Notes: a model not told the origin generated them from the letters alone. DNA of 64,000 nt from Trueperaceae bacterium (GCA_013697735.1 JACCWH010000152.1:1-64000); one strand, 5' to 3'. Positions 5,861 to 47,775 are shown, counted from the stretch's first letter. Numbers and translations: made by a program.

Positions 5861-8146
5861 GTGCCGCGCGCGCTCGACGTCTGGCTTCCGCTACCCGTGC
5901 CGCCCCTGCTCTTCCTCGCCCCGGTCTCGCGGGCCGGCCAGGAGGGTCCCGTCGTGGCCGGTGTGCGCGTCGCCGTACCGTGGCAGGGTGGGGTTCGCGT
6001 CGGCGTGGTCGCGCAGGTGGTGGAGATCGGCGCGGCGAAGGCGCTCGAACTCAAAGAGGCCATCGCCGTGCTCGACCACGACCCGTGGGTGCTCGAGCCC
6101 GCGCGGCGCATGATCGCCGCGCAAGCCGCCCGAGCCGTGGCGAGTCCGGGTGTCGCACTCGCCACCATGCTCGCCGCCGGCGTACACGACGAGCTGCTCC
6201 ACGAACTCCGGCGCGTGCCGGGCGTCGAGCCCGAGGCGCTCGGCGAGCACGGTGAGGTGCTCGCCGACGATGCCTGGATCGACGCCGATCTCGTCCCCCG
6301 CGACGCGGTCACGCTCTGGCGCGAACACGGCCTCGTGCACGAGCGCGTGCGAGCGAGTCCCGTGCTCGTGCGCGTGCTCGAGCCGCGCCGCGGCGCCGAC
6401 GAGGCCCTGGAAGGCAAGGCGCGCGCCAACCAGCGTACGGCGCTCGCCCACCTCGAGCGCCTCGGTAGCGTCGCCAGCGGCGCCGAGCTCGCGCGCGACG
6501 CCGACGTCCCGGAGAGCGCGGTGCGCGCCCTCGTCACGAAGGGGTACGCCGCCTACGAAGACGTCGAGGTGCCGCCGCCGCCGCCGTGCTGGGCGGTGGC
6601 GGGAGAGGGACCGACGCTCCTTCCACCGGGCGTCTGGCCGAGCGGCGAGGGCCGCGTGTTGGTGAGCGGAGGACGCGCTCGAGATCGCCTCGCCTGGCTC
6701 CTCGCCGCTGCGACGGCCGAGATCGCGGCGGGGGCGCAGGTGCTGGTGCTCGCGAGCGAGCTCGCCGCCGTCGCGCTCCTGGCGCCGGAGCTGGCGCGCG
6801 TTGCGCCGACACTGGTGGTACGCGGCGACCTCGACGCTCGCGTGCGCGAGTCGGGCTGGCGCGAAGCCGCACGCGGCGAGCCGCTGGTGGTGGTGGGCAC
6901 CTATCAGGCGCTGAGCATGCCGCTGCCGACGCTCTCACGCGTCCTGGTCTGGGACGCCGCCAGCCCGAGCTACAAGCTCCCCGCCGGAACGCGCTCGGTG
7001 GCGCGTCGCGACGCCGAGGTGCTCGCCGACGCCGCCCACGCCGGAATCGCCTGGTTCGACGCCGTCGCCACGCCCGAGCTCCGCGCCACCCGTCCCACGC
7101 GGACGATCCACGAGCGCGTTCCGAGCATGCGCCTCGTGACGTCGGACCTGCGGGCGAGTACGACGTGGCCCCTCGGCGGCGACCTCATCCGCACCCTCAA
7201 GCAGGTGGCGGAACGTGGTCGCCAAGCGCTCCTGATCGTGCCGCGGCGCGGATTCGCCGCGGGCCTCGCCTGCCGTGCCTGTGGCACGAGCGTGATGTGC
7301 CCGAACTGCGACCTGCCGCTGCGCTGGCATGCGCGCGTCGAGCGACTCCGCTGCCACCAGTGTGGTGTCGAGCGCCCGGCGCCACCACAGTGCCCCACGT
7401 GCGGCGCCACCGGACTCGAACCGCTTCACGGTGCCGGCACCGAATGGGTGGCGCGCGAGGTCGAGCGGGTGGTCGCCCCGCTCGCGGTCCACGTGGTCGA
7501 CACCGACCACCGTGCCGACCTCGCACCGCTCTACGATGGCGCAGCCGGCGTCGTGGTCGCTACCACGGCCGTGCTCCGCTCGGCGCCGCTGCCGAACCTC
7601 TCACTCGTCGCCCTCACGCTGGGAGACGCGCTCTACGCTCGCGAGGACTTCCGGGCCGACGAGGGGGCGCTGCGCACGATGCTCGCCCTCGCCGACCTCG
7701 CCGGCGACCGGCGCCCGCTCGTGCTCGTCCAGACCTTCGATCCCGAGCACGCCCTCTGGACGGCGCTCGCGGCCGACGACCCCGACGCCGCCGTCGTCGC
7801 CTACGCCGACGAGCTCGATGCACGCCGCCGCCGCTTCGGGTACCCGCCCGCCCAGCAATGGGCGCGGCTACAGATCACCCACCGCGACGAGGCGACGGCC
7901 CGGCGGGCCGCGGTGGCGCTCGCGGCGACGCTGCGGACCGCCGGCATCGACGAGCGTGCGCTGCTCGGACCCGCCCCGGCCGGGGTCGCCCGACTGCGCG
8001 GACGCTACGCGCAGCAGCTCTTCGTGCGAGCGGTGGACGACGTGGTGCTCGCCACCGCCCTCGAGGGCGTCGACACACGGCCGGGGGAGGGTGTTCGGGT
8101 GCGGGTCGACGTCGATCCGTACGACGTCGCCGTCTGGCTCGAGTGA
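5861..8146 (+). CDS. priA: Primosomal protein N' (PriA), helicase-motif-deficient
   Basis: PriA recognises stalled forks and recruits the replisome. The 761-aa protein keeps the family layout: an N-terminal DNA-binding part, a helicase-like core, a cysteine-rich zinc insertion and a C-terminal domain. The zinc module is intact, with eight cysteines in four CxxC pairs (CRACG, CPNC, CHQCG, CPTCG). The ATPase motifs are gone. The Walker A position reads VLVSGGRARDRL with no GKT. The DEEH box, expected before SYK, reads WDAASPSYK. It should therefore load proteins without unwinding DNA. Deinococcus radiodurans PriA is known as a pseudohelicase of this kind. GTG start, with the -10 box 5 nt upstream. 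Confidence 0.93.
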   Translation: MPRALDVWLPLPVPPLLFLAPVSRAGQEGPVVAGVRVAVPWQGGVRVGVVAQVVEIGAAKALELKEAIAVLDHDPWVLEPARRMIAAQAARAVASPGVALATMLAAGVHDELLHELRRVPGVEPEALGEHGEVLADDAWIDADLVPRDAVTLWREHGLVHERVRASPVLVRVLEPRRGADEALEGKARANQRTALAHLERLGSVASGAELARDADVPESAVRALVTKGYAAYEDVEVPPPPPCWAVAGEGPTLLPPGVWPSGEGRVLVSGGRARDRLAWLLAAATAEIAAGAQVLVLASELAAVALLAPELARVAPTLVVRGDLDARVRESGWREAARGEPLVVVGTYQALSMPLPTLSRVLVWDAASPSYKLPAGTRSVARRDAEVLADAAHAGIAWFDAVATPELRATRPTRTIHERVPSMRLVTSDLRASTTWPLGGDLIRTLKQVAERGRQALLIVPRRGFAAGLACRACGTSVMCPNCDLPLRWHARVERLRCHQCGVERPAPPQCPTCGATGLEPLHGAGTEWVAREVERVVAPLAVHVVDTDHRADLAPLYDGAAGVVVATTAVLRSAPLPNLSLVALTLGDALYAREDFRADEGALRTMLALADLAGDRRPLVLVQTFDPEHALWTALAADDPDAAVVAYADELDARRRRFGYPPAQQWARLQITHRDEATARRAAVALAATLRTAGIDERALLGPAPAGVARLRGRYAQQLFVRAVDDVVLATALEGVDTRPGEGVRVRVDVDPYDVAVWLE

Positions 8147-23012: not shown

Positions 23013-23798
23013 TCAGGTGGCCTGGGGCCCGAGCCCATCGTGCTCGGCGCCGGCGCGGGCACCTCTACGGAGCTCGTCGTCACGTTCCGGCGCGTCGAGC
23101 CGGCGGCGCGGCACGTCGATCGCGAAGCCCTGGAGGTGCGTCACACCGATATCGTGCAGGAGGTCGCGCAGGGAAACGTCTTCGACGCCTTCGGCCACCA
23201 CGATCCCGAAGCGCTCCGTTGCTCGCTGGATGAAGCGGACGGTGCGCTCTCGCTCCTCCGGATCGCGCAGAAGCGTCACGATGCTGCGGTCGAGCTTGAT
23301 CCCGTCGACGGGAACCTCTTCACGAAAGCGTGTGCTCATGTCGTACCGGGTCACGTCGTCGAGGACCACGAGACCGCACTGCTCGCGCAAAGCGGCTACG
23401 CTCGCCCAGAGCGAAGCACTGTCGCGCATGCGCTGCTCCGTCAGTTCGATGATCATTCGTGCCTGCACGTCGGCCCGAAGCGCCTCGAGCGTCACGACGG
23501 CGCTCGGGTGCGAGACCTGCCGCGGGCTCAGGTTGATGCTCACCCTGGTCTCGGGATTCGTCCGCAGCGTCTCGGCAGCCCGTTCGATGGTGAACCGCGT
23601 GAAGTCGGCTTGGTGATTGGGGCTCAACCAGTACGGCAGGATGTCGAGCGGGCCTCGAATGGTGCCATCGGCGAGATGCCAGCGTACGAGGGATTCGAAC
23701 CAGTCACTCGACGAATCGTGAATGGCGGCGATGCGCTGAAACTGGAAGTGCAGTTCGTCGAGCGGCGGAGGATGGTGTGATGGCGACACCTGGCTCAT
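23013..23798 (-). CDS. Stand-alone EAL-domain c-di-GMP phosphodiesterase
   Basis: A 261-aa protein made of one EAL domain with no GGDEF or obvious sensor. Catalytic blocks are kept: the EAL-position ESL at Glu35, NLSPRQ, ELTEQ, VLDDV, GIKLDRSIV and VAEGVED. It should therefore hydrolyse cyclic di-GMP. A C-terminal 30-aa charged tail has no known fold. It lies 60 nt downstream of the small exported peptide gene in the same direction, with a short hairpin between them. The pair may be co-transcribed. Confidence 0.85.
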   Translation of the reverse strand: MSQVSPSHHPPPLDELHFQFQRIAAIHDSSSDWFESLVRWHLADGTIRGPLDILPYWLSPNHQADFTRFTIERAAETLRTNPETRVSINLSPRQVSHPSAVVTLEALRADVQARMIIELTEQRMRDSASLWASVAALREQCGLVVLDDVTRYDMSTRFREEVPVDGIKLDRSIVTLLRDPEERERTVRFIQRATERFGIVVAEGVEDVSLRDLLHDIGVTHLQGFAIDVPRRRLDAPERDDELRRGARAGAEHDGLGPQAT

Positions 23799-23830
23799 AG
23801 GGGTACGTCGGGGTGAGGAGAAGTCATCGC

Positions 23831-23845
23831 GAGGCGTGGCGCCTC
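23831..23845 (-). terminator. Small hairpin between peptide gene and EAL gene
   Basis: GAGGCG (23831-23836) pairs with CGCCTC (23840-23845) around a 3-nt loop, 13 nt past the peptide stop. It could trim read-through into the EAL gene, but no U-run follows. Confidence 0.3.
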
Positions 23846-23858
23846 CGGCACGCCGTCG

Positions 23859-24005
23859 TCAGCCGACGTCGATGTCGTCGTGCTGGCTGGAGCTGTCGGC
23901 GAACGTGATCGCGGTGGGCTGCAGCAGGCTGCTGGTGCCAGCGGCGGCGCCGACGAGGGTGAAGGCGATGAGCGTGGTCCGCAGGATGTGCTTGAACGTC
24001 GACAT
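23859..24005 (-). CDS. Small putatively exported peptide (48 aa)
   Basis: A short ORF with a good ribosome-binding site (GGGAGG, about 9 nt before the ATG). It encodes a basic start, a hydrophobic core (TTLIAFTLVGAAAG) and an acidic tail ending SSSQHDDIDVG. The form is that of a signal peptide with a mature segment of about 25 aa or less. It has no family match that I recognise. It is divergent from the BTAD-like regulator across a perfect inverted repeat and upstream of an EAL gene. A signalling role is an inference from context only. Confidence 0.55.
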   Translation of the reverse strand: MSTFKHILRTTLIAFTLVGAAAGTSSLLQPTAITFADSSSQHDDIDVG

Positions 24006-24060
24006 GTGTGGGGCCTCCCGTGCGTGAGATGGCAAACGGTACCGAGCGGGGCGCTCCAAA

Positions 24061-24107
24061 CCCGCTCCATCACCGCGCCGTACGGGGCGGCGCGGTGATG
24101 GAGCGGG
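24061..24107. repeat. Perfect 20-bp inverted repeat in divergent intergenic region
   Basis: Bases 24061-24080 are the exact reverse complement of 24088-24107, with a 7-nt spacer (TACGGGG). The repeat lies between a possible leftward -10 (TACCGT, 24036-24041, minus strand) and a possible rightward -10 (TACCCT, 24116-24121), so it covers both -35 regions. It sits upstream of the genes on both sides, so a transcription terminator makes little sense. A regulator binding site is more likely. Confidence 0.75.
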
Positions 24108-24150
24108 GGTTCGTCTACCCTGCAGGCACTCTCGAGGAGGTACACCTTTC

Positions 24151-24342
24151 ATGACACGTGAAGACGCCATGCAGCAGCTCGCCCAATCGACGGACTTCGA
24201 GTTCCGGTACGGGAAGGTCGTCGTTCGGCGCGTCGGGCTGATCGACCGTATCGACCAGATCGACCGACGTGAGAGCGACGCCGGTCGTCACCGTGTGCCG
24301 CTGGCGTCGTCGCTCGGATCGACGGCGTCACGGGCGGCGTGA
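24151..24342 (+). CDS. Hypothetical 63-aa protein
   Basis: A short ORF with a clear GAGGAGG about 10 nt before the ATG and a TACCCT -10 box further upstream. The product is charged and shows no recognised domain. Its middle is coded by three tandem 9-bp units (ATCGACCNN), giving I-D-R/Q repeats. It ends 69 nt before the TPR/BTAD-like regulator gene and may be its leader gene. It could also be non-coding leader sequence, since the C-terminal half looks poorly constrained. Confidence 0.4.
   Translation: MTREDAMQQLAQSTDFEFRYGKVVVRRVGLIDRIDQIDRRESDAGRHRVPLASSLGSTASRAA
24241..24267 (+). repeat. Three tandem 9-bp repeats (ATCGACCNN)
   Basis: Units at 24241-24249, 24250-24258 and 24259-24267 share ATCGACC and differ only in the last two bases. 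They lie inside the 63-aa ORF, between the inverted repeat and the regulator gene. Confidence 0.6.
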
Positions 24343-24399
24343 TCGGGGTTCGAGTGCGCTAGCGACGACGCGTCCGCCGCACCTCGTGCTTCGACCCGA

Positions 24400-24405
24400 T
24401 ATCGT
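24400..24405 (+). promoter_or_regulatory. -10 box (TATCGT) of the TPR/BTAD-like regulator
   Basis: TATCGT ends exactly 6 nt before the GTG start at 24412. It implies a leaderless transcript separate from the upstream 63-aa ORF. Confidence 0.5.
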
Positions 24406-24411
24406 GCAGCC

Positions 24412-26865
24412 GTGTGGGTACCACGCCGGATCGACGCGATCGAGTGCGGAGCGTCGCCGCTCGTCATCCAGGGTGGTGAGGCGTTCGGCGTTCCGTTCCT
24501 CATCGACGCGTTGCGGGTGCGGCACCGGGTCGCGTGGTTCACGCTCCCCGCACGGCTGCACGACGATGCGGTCGGCCAGGGGAATGCGCTCGCGGCGGCG
24601 ATCAACCGCGCGCTCGACGCGCCCTTCTTGCACCAGGCGCTGCCATACCGGTCGCACCTGCAGATGCTCCGGCGCCACCACCAGGACCTGAAACCACTCT
24701 GGATCGTCGCGACCGCGCAACGGGTGGACGCACCGTTCGTTCGCGAGCTCCTCGCCTTGGGGACGACCGGCTACCGCGTGGTGCTCGACGTGGGCGACGC
24801 CGACCTCGACGGTATCGGCGATCTGATGCACACCACCATCTCGCGCGACGCGTTGCGGGTATCGTCCGACGAAGCCGCGCGGATCGCCCCTGCAGGTCTC
24901 GCGCAGTACGTGGTCGCGGAGTTGTTCGCGGCGAGCGACGGGCGCTTCACCGACTTCGTGAGCGCCGCGTACCGGCGAGCGCACCTCCCCCCGCTGCAGG
25001 TGCCCTCACCCGACGGACTCATGGCGTTGCCGACCGACGCCGCACTCGTCGAGCCCGCCGTGGCCGTGTTGGCGCTCCAGCGCGACGGCGCCTACCTCGA
25101 AGCGCTCGAACTCGCCGTCCTGCGCGTGCCCGAGACGGTCGAGGACCTGCTGCGCACGGCCGGGCCCGCGTACCAGGAGAGCGGATTGTTGCGGCGGCTC
25201 CACCTGCTCCTGACGGCGCTCCCCGAGCCGTATGCCACGCGCGGCCGCGTGCTCGAGTGGCGGCTCGTGGCCGCCGCGGGAACGGGTCAACTCGCCGACG
25301 TCGTCGCCGACGTCGACGCTCATCTCGACTCCTTCGAAGCCCCCGATCTGCGCGCGCGGCGCGCCGGCAGCCTCACACGCTCGGCGGGCTTCCTACTCGC
25401 GGCGCGGGCGCTCGATGCGAAGCGGACACCGCTCACCCTCTGGCAGTACGGTCGCCTCCATCCCGATCCAGAGGTCGCGATCGGCGTGCTGCGTGAGAGC
25501 GTGCAGGTCGCGGAGGACGTCGGGACTCCCTACGACCGCGCGCGCAATGCCGGAACGTTGGCGGCTCGTCTGCTCCACCGTGGCGAGTTCGTCCGTGCGG
25601 GCGCATGGGCTCGCTGGGCGCTCGACACCTTCGACCAGCACCACCTTCGCGACGGCGAGCGTCGGCTCGTCATCTTCAACGACCTGGCCGTGGCGCGGAT
25701 CTTCAGCGGCGACGTCGTCGGCCTCAGGCACGGTCTCGAGGATGCGCGGGCGGCGCTGGAGGCGACCGACTCGCTCACGTCGGGATTCTTCCGAAGCACA
25801 CTCGCGTACCTCGAGTTCGCCAGCGACCGTCCCGAGGCGGCGCTCGACCTCCACCGCGAGTCGCACCGCCGAAGTCCGCGCACGACGAGGAGCCGCTACG
25901 CCTACCAGTTCGTACGCGCACTCGTCGAGTTCGGGCGAATCGACGAGGCCGTGCGGATTGCAGATGAGGCGCTCGAGTTGAGCGGCACCGACGCACGGCA
26001 CAGACGGCTCGCCGGCCTGCTCGCTCGCGGGATGGTCCGCGCCATCGCCGGTCGCGATGGGGCCACCGACGACCTCTTCGACGTGATGCACGCGGCAGAT
26101 CTCCCCGCCGAGCACCGAATCTCAGCCGCGCTCTACTATCTCTTGGCGAGCGACGGCGCGGGGCATCACGTTCCACACGGCCTCGCCACCATCATGAGCC
26201 GCCTCGATCCGATGGCCCTCAAGGTATTGAGCGGCCCGGCCTCTCGTTTCCAGGAGATCTGGGACGGGCTGGCTCGCCAGGAGCCGGGTATCCGGCTGGA
26301 GTTCCTCGGGGGCGTCGGATGCCGCCTCGATGGTGCACGGGTATCGCTCCCACCCCGGCTCGCCGAAGTGGCGCTCGCCTTGGTGCTGCACCCGAACGGT
26401 GTGACACGCGACGGGCTCAACGCATTCCTGACACCGGAGGGAAAGCCGCCCTACTCGAACGGGAGCATCCGCGCGCTCATCACGCGGCTCCGCGGCGTCT
26501 TGCCCGTGACCGAAGCTCCGTACCGCCTGGCGGTCCCGTTCGTCGCCGATATCGTCGAGGTGCAGGAGCACCTGGCAGCCGGCCGGGTACGTGAAGCGAT
26601 CGCACTCATGCGCGGGCCATTGGTTCCCGAGAGCGGCGCCCCGGGCGTCGAAGAGCAACGCGCCGACCTGGAGGAGACGCTCCGCCAGGCGGCGCTCGTC
26701 GGCGGCGATCCCGACTCGCTCTACGACCTCGCCGAACGCTTCGGCCACGATCTCGAAGTGTGGGAGGCCACGGTCGCCGCGCTGACGCCGGGCGACCCAC
26801 GCGCCGCACTCGCGATGGCCCGCGTCAGGCGACTCGGGGCCGAGTTCGCTATGCGGTCCCGGTGA
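24412..26865 (+). CDS. Large TPR regulator with degenerate NTPase and SARP/BTAD-like winged-helix end
   Basis: An 817-aa protein laid out like MalT/STAND regulators. An N-terminal NTPase-like region (about 1-170) has a ruined P-loop: VIQGGEAFGVPF has no GK(S/T). A long run of helical TPR-like repeats (about 210-600) follows. The C-terminal segment (about 625-760) reads like a trans_reg_C winged helix with a BTAD-like helical tail (FLGGVGCRLDGARVSLPPR, LHPNGVTRDGLNAFL, IRALITRLRGVLP, APYRLAVPFVADI). It is probably a DNA-binding activator that senses a ligand through its TPRs without ATP switching. The GTG start is fixed by the -10 box. The neighbours suggest a signalling locus. Confidence 0.72.
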   Translation: MWVPRRIDAIECGASPLVIQGGEAFGVPFLIDALRVRHRVAWFTLPARLHDDAVGQGNALAAAINRALDAPFLHQALPYRSHLQMLRRHHQDLKPLWIVATAQRVDAPFVRELLALGTTGYRVVLDVGDADLDGIGDLMHTTISRDALRVSSDEAARIAPAGLAQYVVAELFAASDGRFTDFVSAAYRRAHLPPLQVPSPDGLMALPTDAALVEPAVAVLALQRDGAYLEALELAVLRVPETVEDLLRTAGPAYQESGLLRRLHLLLTALPEPYATRGRVLEWRLVAAAGTGQLADVVADVDAHLDSFEAPDLRARRAGSLTRSAGFLLAARALDAKRTPLTLWQYGRLHPDPEVAIGVLRESVQVAEDVGTPYDRARNAGTLAARLLHRGEFVRAGAWARWALDTFDQHHLRDGERRLVIFNDLAVARIFSGDVVGLRHGLEDARAALEATDSLTSGFFRSTLAYLEFASDRPEAALDLHRESHRRSPRTTRSRYAYQFVRALVEFGRIDEAVRIADEALELSGTDARHRRLAGLLARGMVRAIAGRDGATDDLFDVMHAADLPAEHRISAALYYLLASDGAGHHVPHGLATIMSRLDPMALKVLSGPASRFQEIWDGLARQEPGIRLEFLGGVGCRLDGARVSLPPRLAEVALALVLHPNGVTRDGLNAFLTPEGKPPYSNGSIRALITRLRGVLPVTEAPYRLAVPFVADIVEVQEHLAAGRVREAIALMRGPLVPESGAPGVEEQRADLEETLRQAALVGGDPDSLYDLAERFGHDLEVWEATVAALTPGDPRAALAMARVRRLGAEFAMRSR

Positions 26866-46173: not shown

Positions 46174-47775
46174 ATGTCCGATTCGAACTTCGCGCAGACG
46201 CTACGCCGATCCGCCGATCGACGCTCGTTCTTCCGCACTGTGTTGGCCATGGCCGTCGCGGTCGTGTTCGGCGCCAGCAGCGTCGCATGGGCACAAGGCA
46301 CCGACGGCGGCACGCTCGTCTGGCTCGGTCACCAGGAGGTCGCCGGGCTCGGCCCGAACGACATCGGCCCCGACGTTCAGGCGGCCGTGATCTTCAACAT
46401 CCTCAACCCGCTCGTGCACGTCAACCACCTCACGGAGACCGAAGGGGTCCTCGCACGCTCGTGGGACGTGACCGACGACGGTCTCACCTACACCTTCGAA
46501 CTCGAAGAGGGTGTCGTCTTCCACGACGGCAGCGAGTTCACCGCCGACGACGTGAAGTACACGTACGAGTTCTACGCCCAGCCGGGCAACACCATCGCCA
46601 GCCGCTTCAACGGCATGCGCGAGGTCGAGGTCGTCGACGCCCACACGGTGCGCGTCCACATGGACAGCGTGAACGCCGCCTTCTTGCGCGTGGCGGGCGA
46701 GGTTCCGATCGTGCCCTCGGACTACCACGCCGAGGTCGGCGACGACGGCTTCCGCACCGCGCCGATCGGCACGGGCGCCTTCCGGCTCGAGGAATGGCGG
46801 CCGGCCGAATTCACGCAGCTCGTGGCGTTCCCGGAGCACTTCCGCGGCGCACCGCTCGTCGAGCGGCTCCGCCTCGAGGTCGTGCCCGAGGCCTCCGTTC
46901 GCTACATCGCGCTGCTCACGGGCGACGCGCATGCGACGGTCTGGCCCATCTCGGTCGAGGACAGCCTCGAACTCGATGCCGATCCCGACTTCCGCATGGT
47001 GGCGACGAACTGGAACTCGCCGCGGTTCATTCCGCTCAACAACGAGGTCCCGCAGCTCTCCGACCGGCGCGTGCGCCAGGCGATGCTGCACGCGATCGAT
47101 CGTCAGCGCATCATCGACGACCTCGAAGCGGGTTTCGGCGTGGTCGCGACGTCGCACCTCGCTCCGCACAACAGCTTCTACAACCCCGACGTGCCCCTGT
47201 ACCCGTACGACCCCGAGCGCGCGCGGGAGCTCCTCGAAGAGGCCGGTTGGACCGTCGGGTCCGACGGCATTCGCGTCAAGGACGGCCAGCGCCTGACCTT
47301 CACGACCACGACGATCAGCGGCGATCAGCAGCGTCGTCCGATGGCCGAGCTCGCGCAGATCTTCCTGCGTGAGGTGGGCGTCGACATGCAGCTCGCCGAG
47401 GCGCCCGTCGCGTCGATCCTCCAGGGATTGCGTGAAGGGACGCTCGAAGCGTCGCTCTTCAACTGGACCCACGGCTCGACGACGGACCCGAGTCCGACGA
47501 GCACGCTCTACAGCACCGGTGGCGACAACTTCACGCGCTACAACAACCCCGAGATGGATGGCCTCATCGACGAGGGCTTGGGGCTCGTGGCAGAAGAAGC
47601 CCGCCGCCCCATCTACGACCGGACGCAGGAGCTCTTCGCCGAGGACGTGCCCGCCCTCTACCTGCACTTCAACCAGGGTGTCCTCGTCTTCTCGAACGCC
47701 ATGCAGGGGCTGCCCGACGAAATCCTCTCGAGCACCCCGCTCTTCTACCGTGCGCACGAGTACTCGCTCGATTGA
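46174..47775 (+). CDS. ABC transporter substrate-binding protein, family 5 (dipeptide/oligopeptide type)
   Basis: A 533-aa DppA/OppA-like binding protein. The leader has a twin arginine (ADRRSFFRT) before the hydrophobic stretch and ends at WAQ. Family signatures follow: LARSWDVTDDGLTYTFELEEGVVFHDGSEFTADDV, APIGTGAFRLEEW, DRRVRQAMLHAIDRQRI and YDPERARELLEEAGW. GGAGG lies 4 nt before ATG 46174. It opens an operon with two permeases and an M81 peptidase. ATPase subunits (DppD/F) are missing from the visible operon. Confidence 0.93.
   Translation: MSDSNFAQTLRRSADRRSFFRTVLAMAVAVVFGASSVAWAQGTDGGTLVWLGHQEVAGLGPNDIGPDVQAAVIFNILNPLVHVNHLTETEGVLARSWDVTDDGLTYTFELEEGVVFHDGSEFTADDVKYTYEFYAQPGNTIASRFNGMREVEVVDAHTVRVHMDSVNAAFLRVAGEVPIVPSDYHAEVGDDGFRTAPIGTGAFRLEEWRPAEFTQLVAFPEHFRGAPLVERLRLEVVPEASVRYIALLTGDAHATVWPISVEDSLELDADPDFRMVATNWNSPRFIPLNNEVPQLSDRRVRQAMLHAIDRQRIIDDLEAGFGVVATSHLAPHNSFYNPDVPLYPYDPERARELLEEAGWTVGSDGIRVKDGQRLTFTTTTISGDQQRRPMAELAQIFLREVGVDMQLAEAPVASILQGLREGTLEASLFNWTHGSTTDPSPTSTLYSTGGDNFTRYNNPEMDGLIDEGLGLVAEEARRPIYDRTQELFAEDVPALYLHFNQGVLVFSNAMQGLPDEILSSTPLFYRAHEYSLD

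Follow-up and report, generated by a model that had tools for sequence, protein, structure and literature searches.

Peptide quorum sensing through cytosolic receptors is described for Firmicutes, and our literature searches turned up no account of it in Deinococcota. The signature of one such family, RRNPP, combines a Sec-type propeptide of 10-100 aa, a receptor of 250-500 aa with tetratricopeptide repeats (TPRs), and genes that lie -60 to 400 bp apart (PMC10075063). A second point of comparison is offered by the SARP regulators, which recognise heptamer direct repeats with 4-nt spacers (PMC5930380), the last repeat standing 8 bp before the -10 box (PMC10936776). Here we analyse a stretch of 64,000 nucleotides from a Trueperaceae bacterium (GCA_013697735.1 JACCWH010000152.1:1-64000, hereafter the window), in which a gene for a small putatively exported peptide (PEP) and a gene for an EAL-domain phosphodiesterase (EAL) of cyclic diguanosine monophosphate (c-di-GMP) are divergent from a conserved small gene (ORF63) and a large regulator gene (REG).

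An original prediction, made from the sequence alone, had proposed a peptide-signalling locus composed of a 48-aa open reading frame (ORF) with a ribosome-binding site and signal-peptide form, an EAL gene, and an 817-aa regulator with TPRs, a dead P-loop and a winged helix. Every one of these parts is present, and our analysis adds ORF63 and both direct-repeat promoters. We consider it probable that the locus encodes a self-contained, autoactivating peptide-sensing circuit with c-di-GMP hydrolysis as its main output.

Results

PEP (23859..24005, minus strand) encodes a 48-aa propeptide, MSTFKHILRTTLIAFTLVGAAAGTSSLLQPTAITFA followed by DSSSQHDDIDVG, and its ribosome-binding site, GGGAGG, is located at 24014-24019 on the same strand, 8 nt 5' of the ATG. 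Among 39 genomes of the family, a PEP profile has matches in 15, one per genome and always at the EAL/regulator locus (E 4e-25 to 1e-10); PEP is thus present in 15 of the 21 genomes with an orthologous REG, as against none of the 18 without it (Fisher test, p about 2e-6, computed by hand). The orthologues, of 46-48 aa, lie between REG and EAL, and their start, ribosome-binding site position, signal-peptide form and tail are all kept. In close pairs, the ratio of non-synonymous to synonymous changes (pN/pS) is 0.28, 0.14, 0.36 and 0.43; at larger distance it climbs towards or above 1 and is uninformative because substitutions accumulate, so that close pairs alone inform. As the profile matches fall at one locus in 15 genomes and close-pair pN/pS is well below 1, PEP is not a chance ORF: a spurious ORF is ruled out by conservation and purifying selection, and the 48-aa ORF is, on this comparison of sequences, a real gene under purifying selection. 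The two checks that had been proposed for it, conservation beside regulator homologues and a Ka/Ks below one, therefore both came out in its favour.

The n-, h- and c-regions of a signal peptide are all recognised in PEP by rule, and the signal-peptidase-type site is invariant. Residues A36, D46 and G48 do not vary across orthologues, and a cut after A36 would release a tail of 10-12 residues, hydrophilic and acidic, with a genus-specific core and a fixed end. The predicted mature 12-mer of the window, DSSSQHDDIDVG, is encoded at 23862..23897 (minus strand), after the invariant Ala (-1). One relative (G006) has a divergent version of 57 aa, whose last residues are GGHSDDVDPG. In another (G016), the start codon is ACG, an Arg stands in the hydrophobic core and EAL is disrupted, while both REG and ORF63 remain whole (L036, about 6400-7002); this joint decay of PEP and EAL fits with the two genes forming one unit.

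The mature peptide is further delimited by multi-copy precursors. In G023, the precursor carries the mature unit GSSGQPGDIDVG twice. The precursor of G032, encoded divergently from ORF63, consists of a signal peptide followed by at least five full head-to-tail copies of DSGGLVVPDVG and a part copy, the array reaching the contig end. These 11-aa copies show at most seven synonymous base differences and not a single one that changes an amino acid, which speaks for the peptide itself being kept by selection. Tandem pheromone copies are known from Rap-Phr systems (PMC11343458).

REG (24412..26865, plus strand, GTG start) encodes a regulator of 817 aa, whose AlphaFold model (mean pLDDT 90.5) comprises an NTPase-like N-terminus, a TPR superhelix, a winged helix and terminal helices. 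The closest fold in the PDB is that of 6mfv, a STAND-TPR protein. According to alignment and model, residues 1-190 (24412..24981) adopt an NTPase-like fold with a dead P-loop of the form GGExxGxP: the sequence at this position is GGEAFGVP, which departs from the Walker A pattern GxxxxGK[ST], and the Lys is absent in 16/16 orthologues. Residues 215-620 (25054..26271) are modelled as the TPR superhelix, the proposed peptide-binding part, with weak Pfam TPR matches below cut-off. Residues 625-712 (26284..26547) are predicted to form an OmpR-like winged helix, from the model and from weak profile matches to OmpR/PhoB-type DNA-binding domains of the PDB (E 0.045-0.7). The regulator had also been described as BTAD-like, a description that is not supported, as neither Pfam nor NCBIfam gives a BTAD match in REG; HTH_3 has no Pfam match in it, and the RRNPP families have no Pfam or NCBIfam match. 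Some of the REG orthologues in the 21 genomes are partial, at contig ends; orthologues in named records come from metagenome-assembled genomes of Trueperaceae and other Deinococcota. The orthologues have 810-839 aa, are 36-57% identical and show a pN/pS of 0.18-0.35 in close pairs.

ORF63 (24151..24342, plus strand; ribosome-binding site GAGGAGGT at 24134-24141, same strand) is the first gene of the REG operon and encodes 63 aa. Its profile has matches at the locus in 18 genomes, every one of which has REG (E 1e-26 to 3.5e-8). The protein lacks a signal peptide and is modelled by AlphaFold as a helix-hairpin-helix (residues 1-40, pLDDT about 86), for which a fold search returned nothing significant. 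Its probable role is that of a small protein in the cytosol that partners or modulates REG.

Both divergent promoters share one architecture, which is that of SARP/OmpR-type activators. The PEP-EAL operator, TGGAGCG GGTT TGGAGCG (24052..24069, minus strand), keeps its position in 15/15 orthologues. A third heptamer, degenerate in sequence, lies at 24074-24080, and exactly 10 nt past the operator there is a -10 box, TACCGT (24036..24041, minus strand). The ORF63-REG operator, CGGCGCG GTGA TGGAGCG (24088..24105, plus strand), precedes a -10 box, TACCCT, at 24116..24121 on the same strand. The PEP promoter reads TGRAGCG-N4-TGRAGCG-N10-TAnnnT in all 15 orthologues with a TGRAGCG heptamer, several of which are close relatives. 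The ORF63-REG promoter is laid out likewise, with no more than two mismatches, TAnnnT being found at N10 in 12/15 and at N9 in 3/15, for a background of 0.8% per position. Over 18 loci, heptamer identity at the 11-bp period averages 6.7/7, as against 4.1-4.8 for other periods, and in G006 the heptamer is altered to TTCAACG with position and spacing unchanged (by inspection). Read by eye, the facing operators make up a perfect inverted repeat, whose 19-bp arms (24061-24079 and 24089-24107) flank a centre of 9 bp. As REG is predicted to carry an OmpR-like winged helix, it would be the natural binder of these direct repeats. In the 3.5-Mb draft genome of the strain studied (G000), the exact TGRAGCG-N4-TGRAGCG sequence occurs once, at the PEP promoter. 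A search of the same genome for a wider regulon, with two mismatches allowed, gave 126 matches against 158 for the reversed control, and no further target is therefore claimed.

EAL (23013..23798, minus strand; Pfam EAL, E=3.9e-31) lies 3' of PEP and is probably co-transcribed with it. It is divergent from REG throughout the family, with conserved synteny. In alignment with the EAL proteins 3s83 and 3u2e of the PDB, the catalytic E, N, E, DD, K, E and Q positions are retained. As these positions are kept and the single strong operator is that of PEP-EAL, a change in c-di-GMP would be the simplest output.

REG paralogues are found in several families of the order and on Deinococcus plasmids. 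A small signal-peptide ORF converges on the regulator 3' end in 12/64 family members versus 4/268 control genes (p=1e-6, in a comparison where relatives are not independent), namely at L045, L086, L091, L093, L098, L100, L104, L152, L155, L156, L157 and L165; such ORFs often overlap the 3' end of the paralogue by a few bases. In G014, the orthologous regulator is flipped, and the divergent peptide/ORF63 pair is still beside it. In front of the peptide gene of a second family member of this genome (L104) stand four repeats of the GGTAACG type, spaced by 11-bp steps; in their exact paired form, such repeats are found in G014 solely at this place. A 39-aa peptide of G014 carries the tail RPGNGGGDVCRTSVSSTR.

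On two Deinococcus plasmids (L202, CP029777.1; L203, NZ_CP092194.1), a REG homologue is accompanied by a convergent exported peptide, which reads ESGGAG.PGGG.HLD after the signal, and then by a radical S-adenosylmethionine (SAM) gene. These could be loci for ribosomally synthesised and post-translationally modified peptides (RiPPs) under a REG-family regulator. In G071, a gene for a RamC/LanC-type lanthipeptide synthetase (L152, 2511-5330, minus strand) adjoins a REG paralogue together with the peptide that converges on it.

Another peptide locus, unrelated to the first, was observed in 10 Trueperaceae genomes. It encodes a 33-aa peptide beginning with MKNTGKRIF and mostly ending in SQR (L094 3931-4032; L095 8924-9022; L097 4963-5061; L103 8920-9018; L172-L175), which is divergent from a TPR protein of about 570 aa wherever the contig allows; in L095, L097 and L103 an HD-GYP gene adjoins it. 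This locus repeats the theme of a tiny exported peptide, a TPR protein and a c-di-GMP phosphodiesterase. The 33-aa peptide first seemed linked to a REG paralogue, a partnership that was rejected since it tracks the separate TPR protein. A structured RNA leader or riboswitch was likewise rejected, as Rfam has no match in the window or at the 33-aa peptide locus.

Discussion

The circuit that we propose is built on what can be read from sequence, namely the genes, their conservation and linkage, the selection acting on the peptide, the tandem copies, the operator/-10 architecture and the predicted regulator fold. The 48-aa PEP precursor would leave the cell through the Sec pathway, and signal peptidase would cleave it after Ala36 to release about DSSSQHDDIDVG. 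The peptide would build up outside the cell, re-enter through an oligopeptide permease and bind the TPR superhelix of REG, whose ligand it would be. The peptide-bound regulator would then contact, through its C-terminal winged helix, the heptamer-N4-heptamer repeats that would replace the -35 boxes of both promoters. Activation of PEP-EAL would yield more signal together with c-di-GMP hydrolysis, and activation of ORF63-REG would yield more receptor, so that a high peptide level could lower c-di-GMP and favour, for example, biofilm exit. Import is at least possible, given 36 matches over cut-off to SBP_bac_5 binding proteins (oligopeptide/nickel-type) in the genome, though this is a general family; one of the 36 genes is in the window, at 46441-47529. 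The link to c-di-GMP, which the original prediction had found suggestive, is strengthened by the kept synteny of EAL, by its joint decay with PEP in one relative and by the HD-GYP gene at the unrelated peptide locus.

Several points weigh against this circuit. Loop 6 of EAL is altered, from DDFGTGYSS to DDVTRYDMS, and catalysis is therefore not certain. REG is far larger than RRNPP receptors, and its domains come in a different order. It is intact in G016, a genome that has lost the start codon of PEP as well as EAL. RiPP-type enzymes (radical SAM, LanC) adjoin family members on Deinococcus plasmids and in G071, which belongs to another family, so that some of the associated peptides may be modified products and not signals. 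Most of the genomes compared are metagenome-assembled, the copy count of the G032 array is a lower bound, and the call of export comes from a simple set of rules rather than from SignalP. Lastly, export, import, ligand binding, activation, direction of control and physiological output are all steps that we infer.

Some of these points are also those that favour the chief rival of the circuit, according to which the peptide is an output: REG would respond to something else, be it a metabolite or a partner (for instance ORF63), by switching on a small exported effector peptide together with EAL. The PEP operator suits a simple target gene, REG relatives on Deinococcus plasmids and in G071 adjoin RiPP-type enzymes and exported peptides, and G016 retains REG and ORF63 despite having neither a functional PEP nor a functional EAL. 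An effector is, however, less easily reconciled with one peptide gene per regulator, with genus-specific cores followed by a fixed tail end, and with multi-copy precursors whose copies differ synonymously only; moreover, no modification or immunity genes are seen at the locus in the Trueperaceae clade. We thus regard this explanation as rather unlikely, though it deserves to be taken seriously. It is also conceivable that the mature peptide targets a different receptor at the cell envelope and that REG does no more than set peptide expression, as would suit a hydrophilic, acidic tail and a locus to which no import gene is linked. Yet no conserved membrane receptor gene is seen at the locus in relatives, and the TPR regulator is, besides EAL, the sole large gene always linked, which makes this possibility improbable in our view. 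Finally, although the small ORF lies directly 5' of EAL on the same strand, as a leader peptide controlling EAL translation or attenuation would, its amino-acid-level conservation of sequence, signal-peptide form and last residues, the synonymous-only differences of the G032 copies and the lack of any Rfam match in the window leave hardly any room for such a role.

We also lean, with a little less assurance than for the circuit itself, towards the view that Deinococcota have a class of peptide quorum sensing of their own, assembled independently of others. It would consist of pseudo-STAND/TPR/winged-helix receptors and exported peptides, some made from multi-copy precursors, that activate themselves through heptamer direct repeats, and in the Trueperaceae clade it would be wired directly to c-di-GMP hydrolysis. 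In the open-licence literature, searched for RRNPP outside Firmicutes, Deinococcus-Thermus pheromones, Trueperaceae, RRNPP with c-di-GMP, and STAND/TPR proteins with secreted peptides, we found no description of such a system. If true, a further phylum would be found to use a peptide language, based on a receptor of different architecture, and a secreted peptide would be connected directly to c-di-GMP, in a compact circuit composed of a peptide, a receptor, a small partner, an output enzyme and two matching promoters.

Compared with the RRNPP systems of Bacillota (Rap-Phr, PlcR-PapR, NprR, Rgg-SHP), the locus shares a small propeptide, of 48 aa and Sec-type form by rule, a C-terminal signal, a nearby cytosolic regulator that is modelled with TPRs, and the occasional tandem pheromone copies (PMC11343458). 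The starts of PEP and REG are 406 bp apart, with ORF63 between them on the REG strand, for an RRNPP range of -60 to 400 bp. REG differs, however, by its size (817 aa versus 250-500 aa) and by its OmpR-like winged helix, which is C-terminal whereas the transcription-factor members of RRNPP have an N-terminal XRE-type helix-turn-helix; a dead STAND domain, the additional ORF63 and EAL, and the different phylum set it further apart. The original suggestion of peptide signalling has thus become likelier, given a precursor with several copies and promoter boxes common to both sides, but RRNPP as a family label is not supported, since the size of REG, its predicted DNA-binding domain and the order of its domains are all wrong for it.

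With SARP/AfsR regulators of Streptomyces (PMC10936776, PMC5930380), REG shares the combination of STAND-like, TPR and OmpR-like DNA-binding parts, and its promoters, if REG is indeed their binder, have the same heptamer direct repeats with an 11-bp period and a fixed distance to the -10 box. SARP/AfsR proteins, by contrast, carry their winged helix and BTAD at the N-terminus and have an ATP-binding NTPase, whereas in REG the order is reversed, no BTAD is found and the P-loop is dead; its apparent target at the locus is, in addition, the peptide gene. By domain order and the missing BTAD match, REG does not belong to the BTAD/SARP family. MalT/LAL regulators and 6mfv, which are STAND proteins, resemble REG in overall NTPase-TPR architecture and differ from it by the dead P-loop of REG, by its OmpR-like instead of LuxR-type output domain and by the linked peptide gene. 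The circuit is therefore best read as one that would work like an RRNPP system, with a SARP-like promoter logic.

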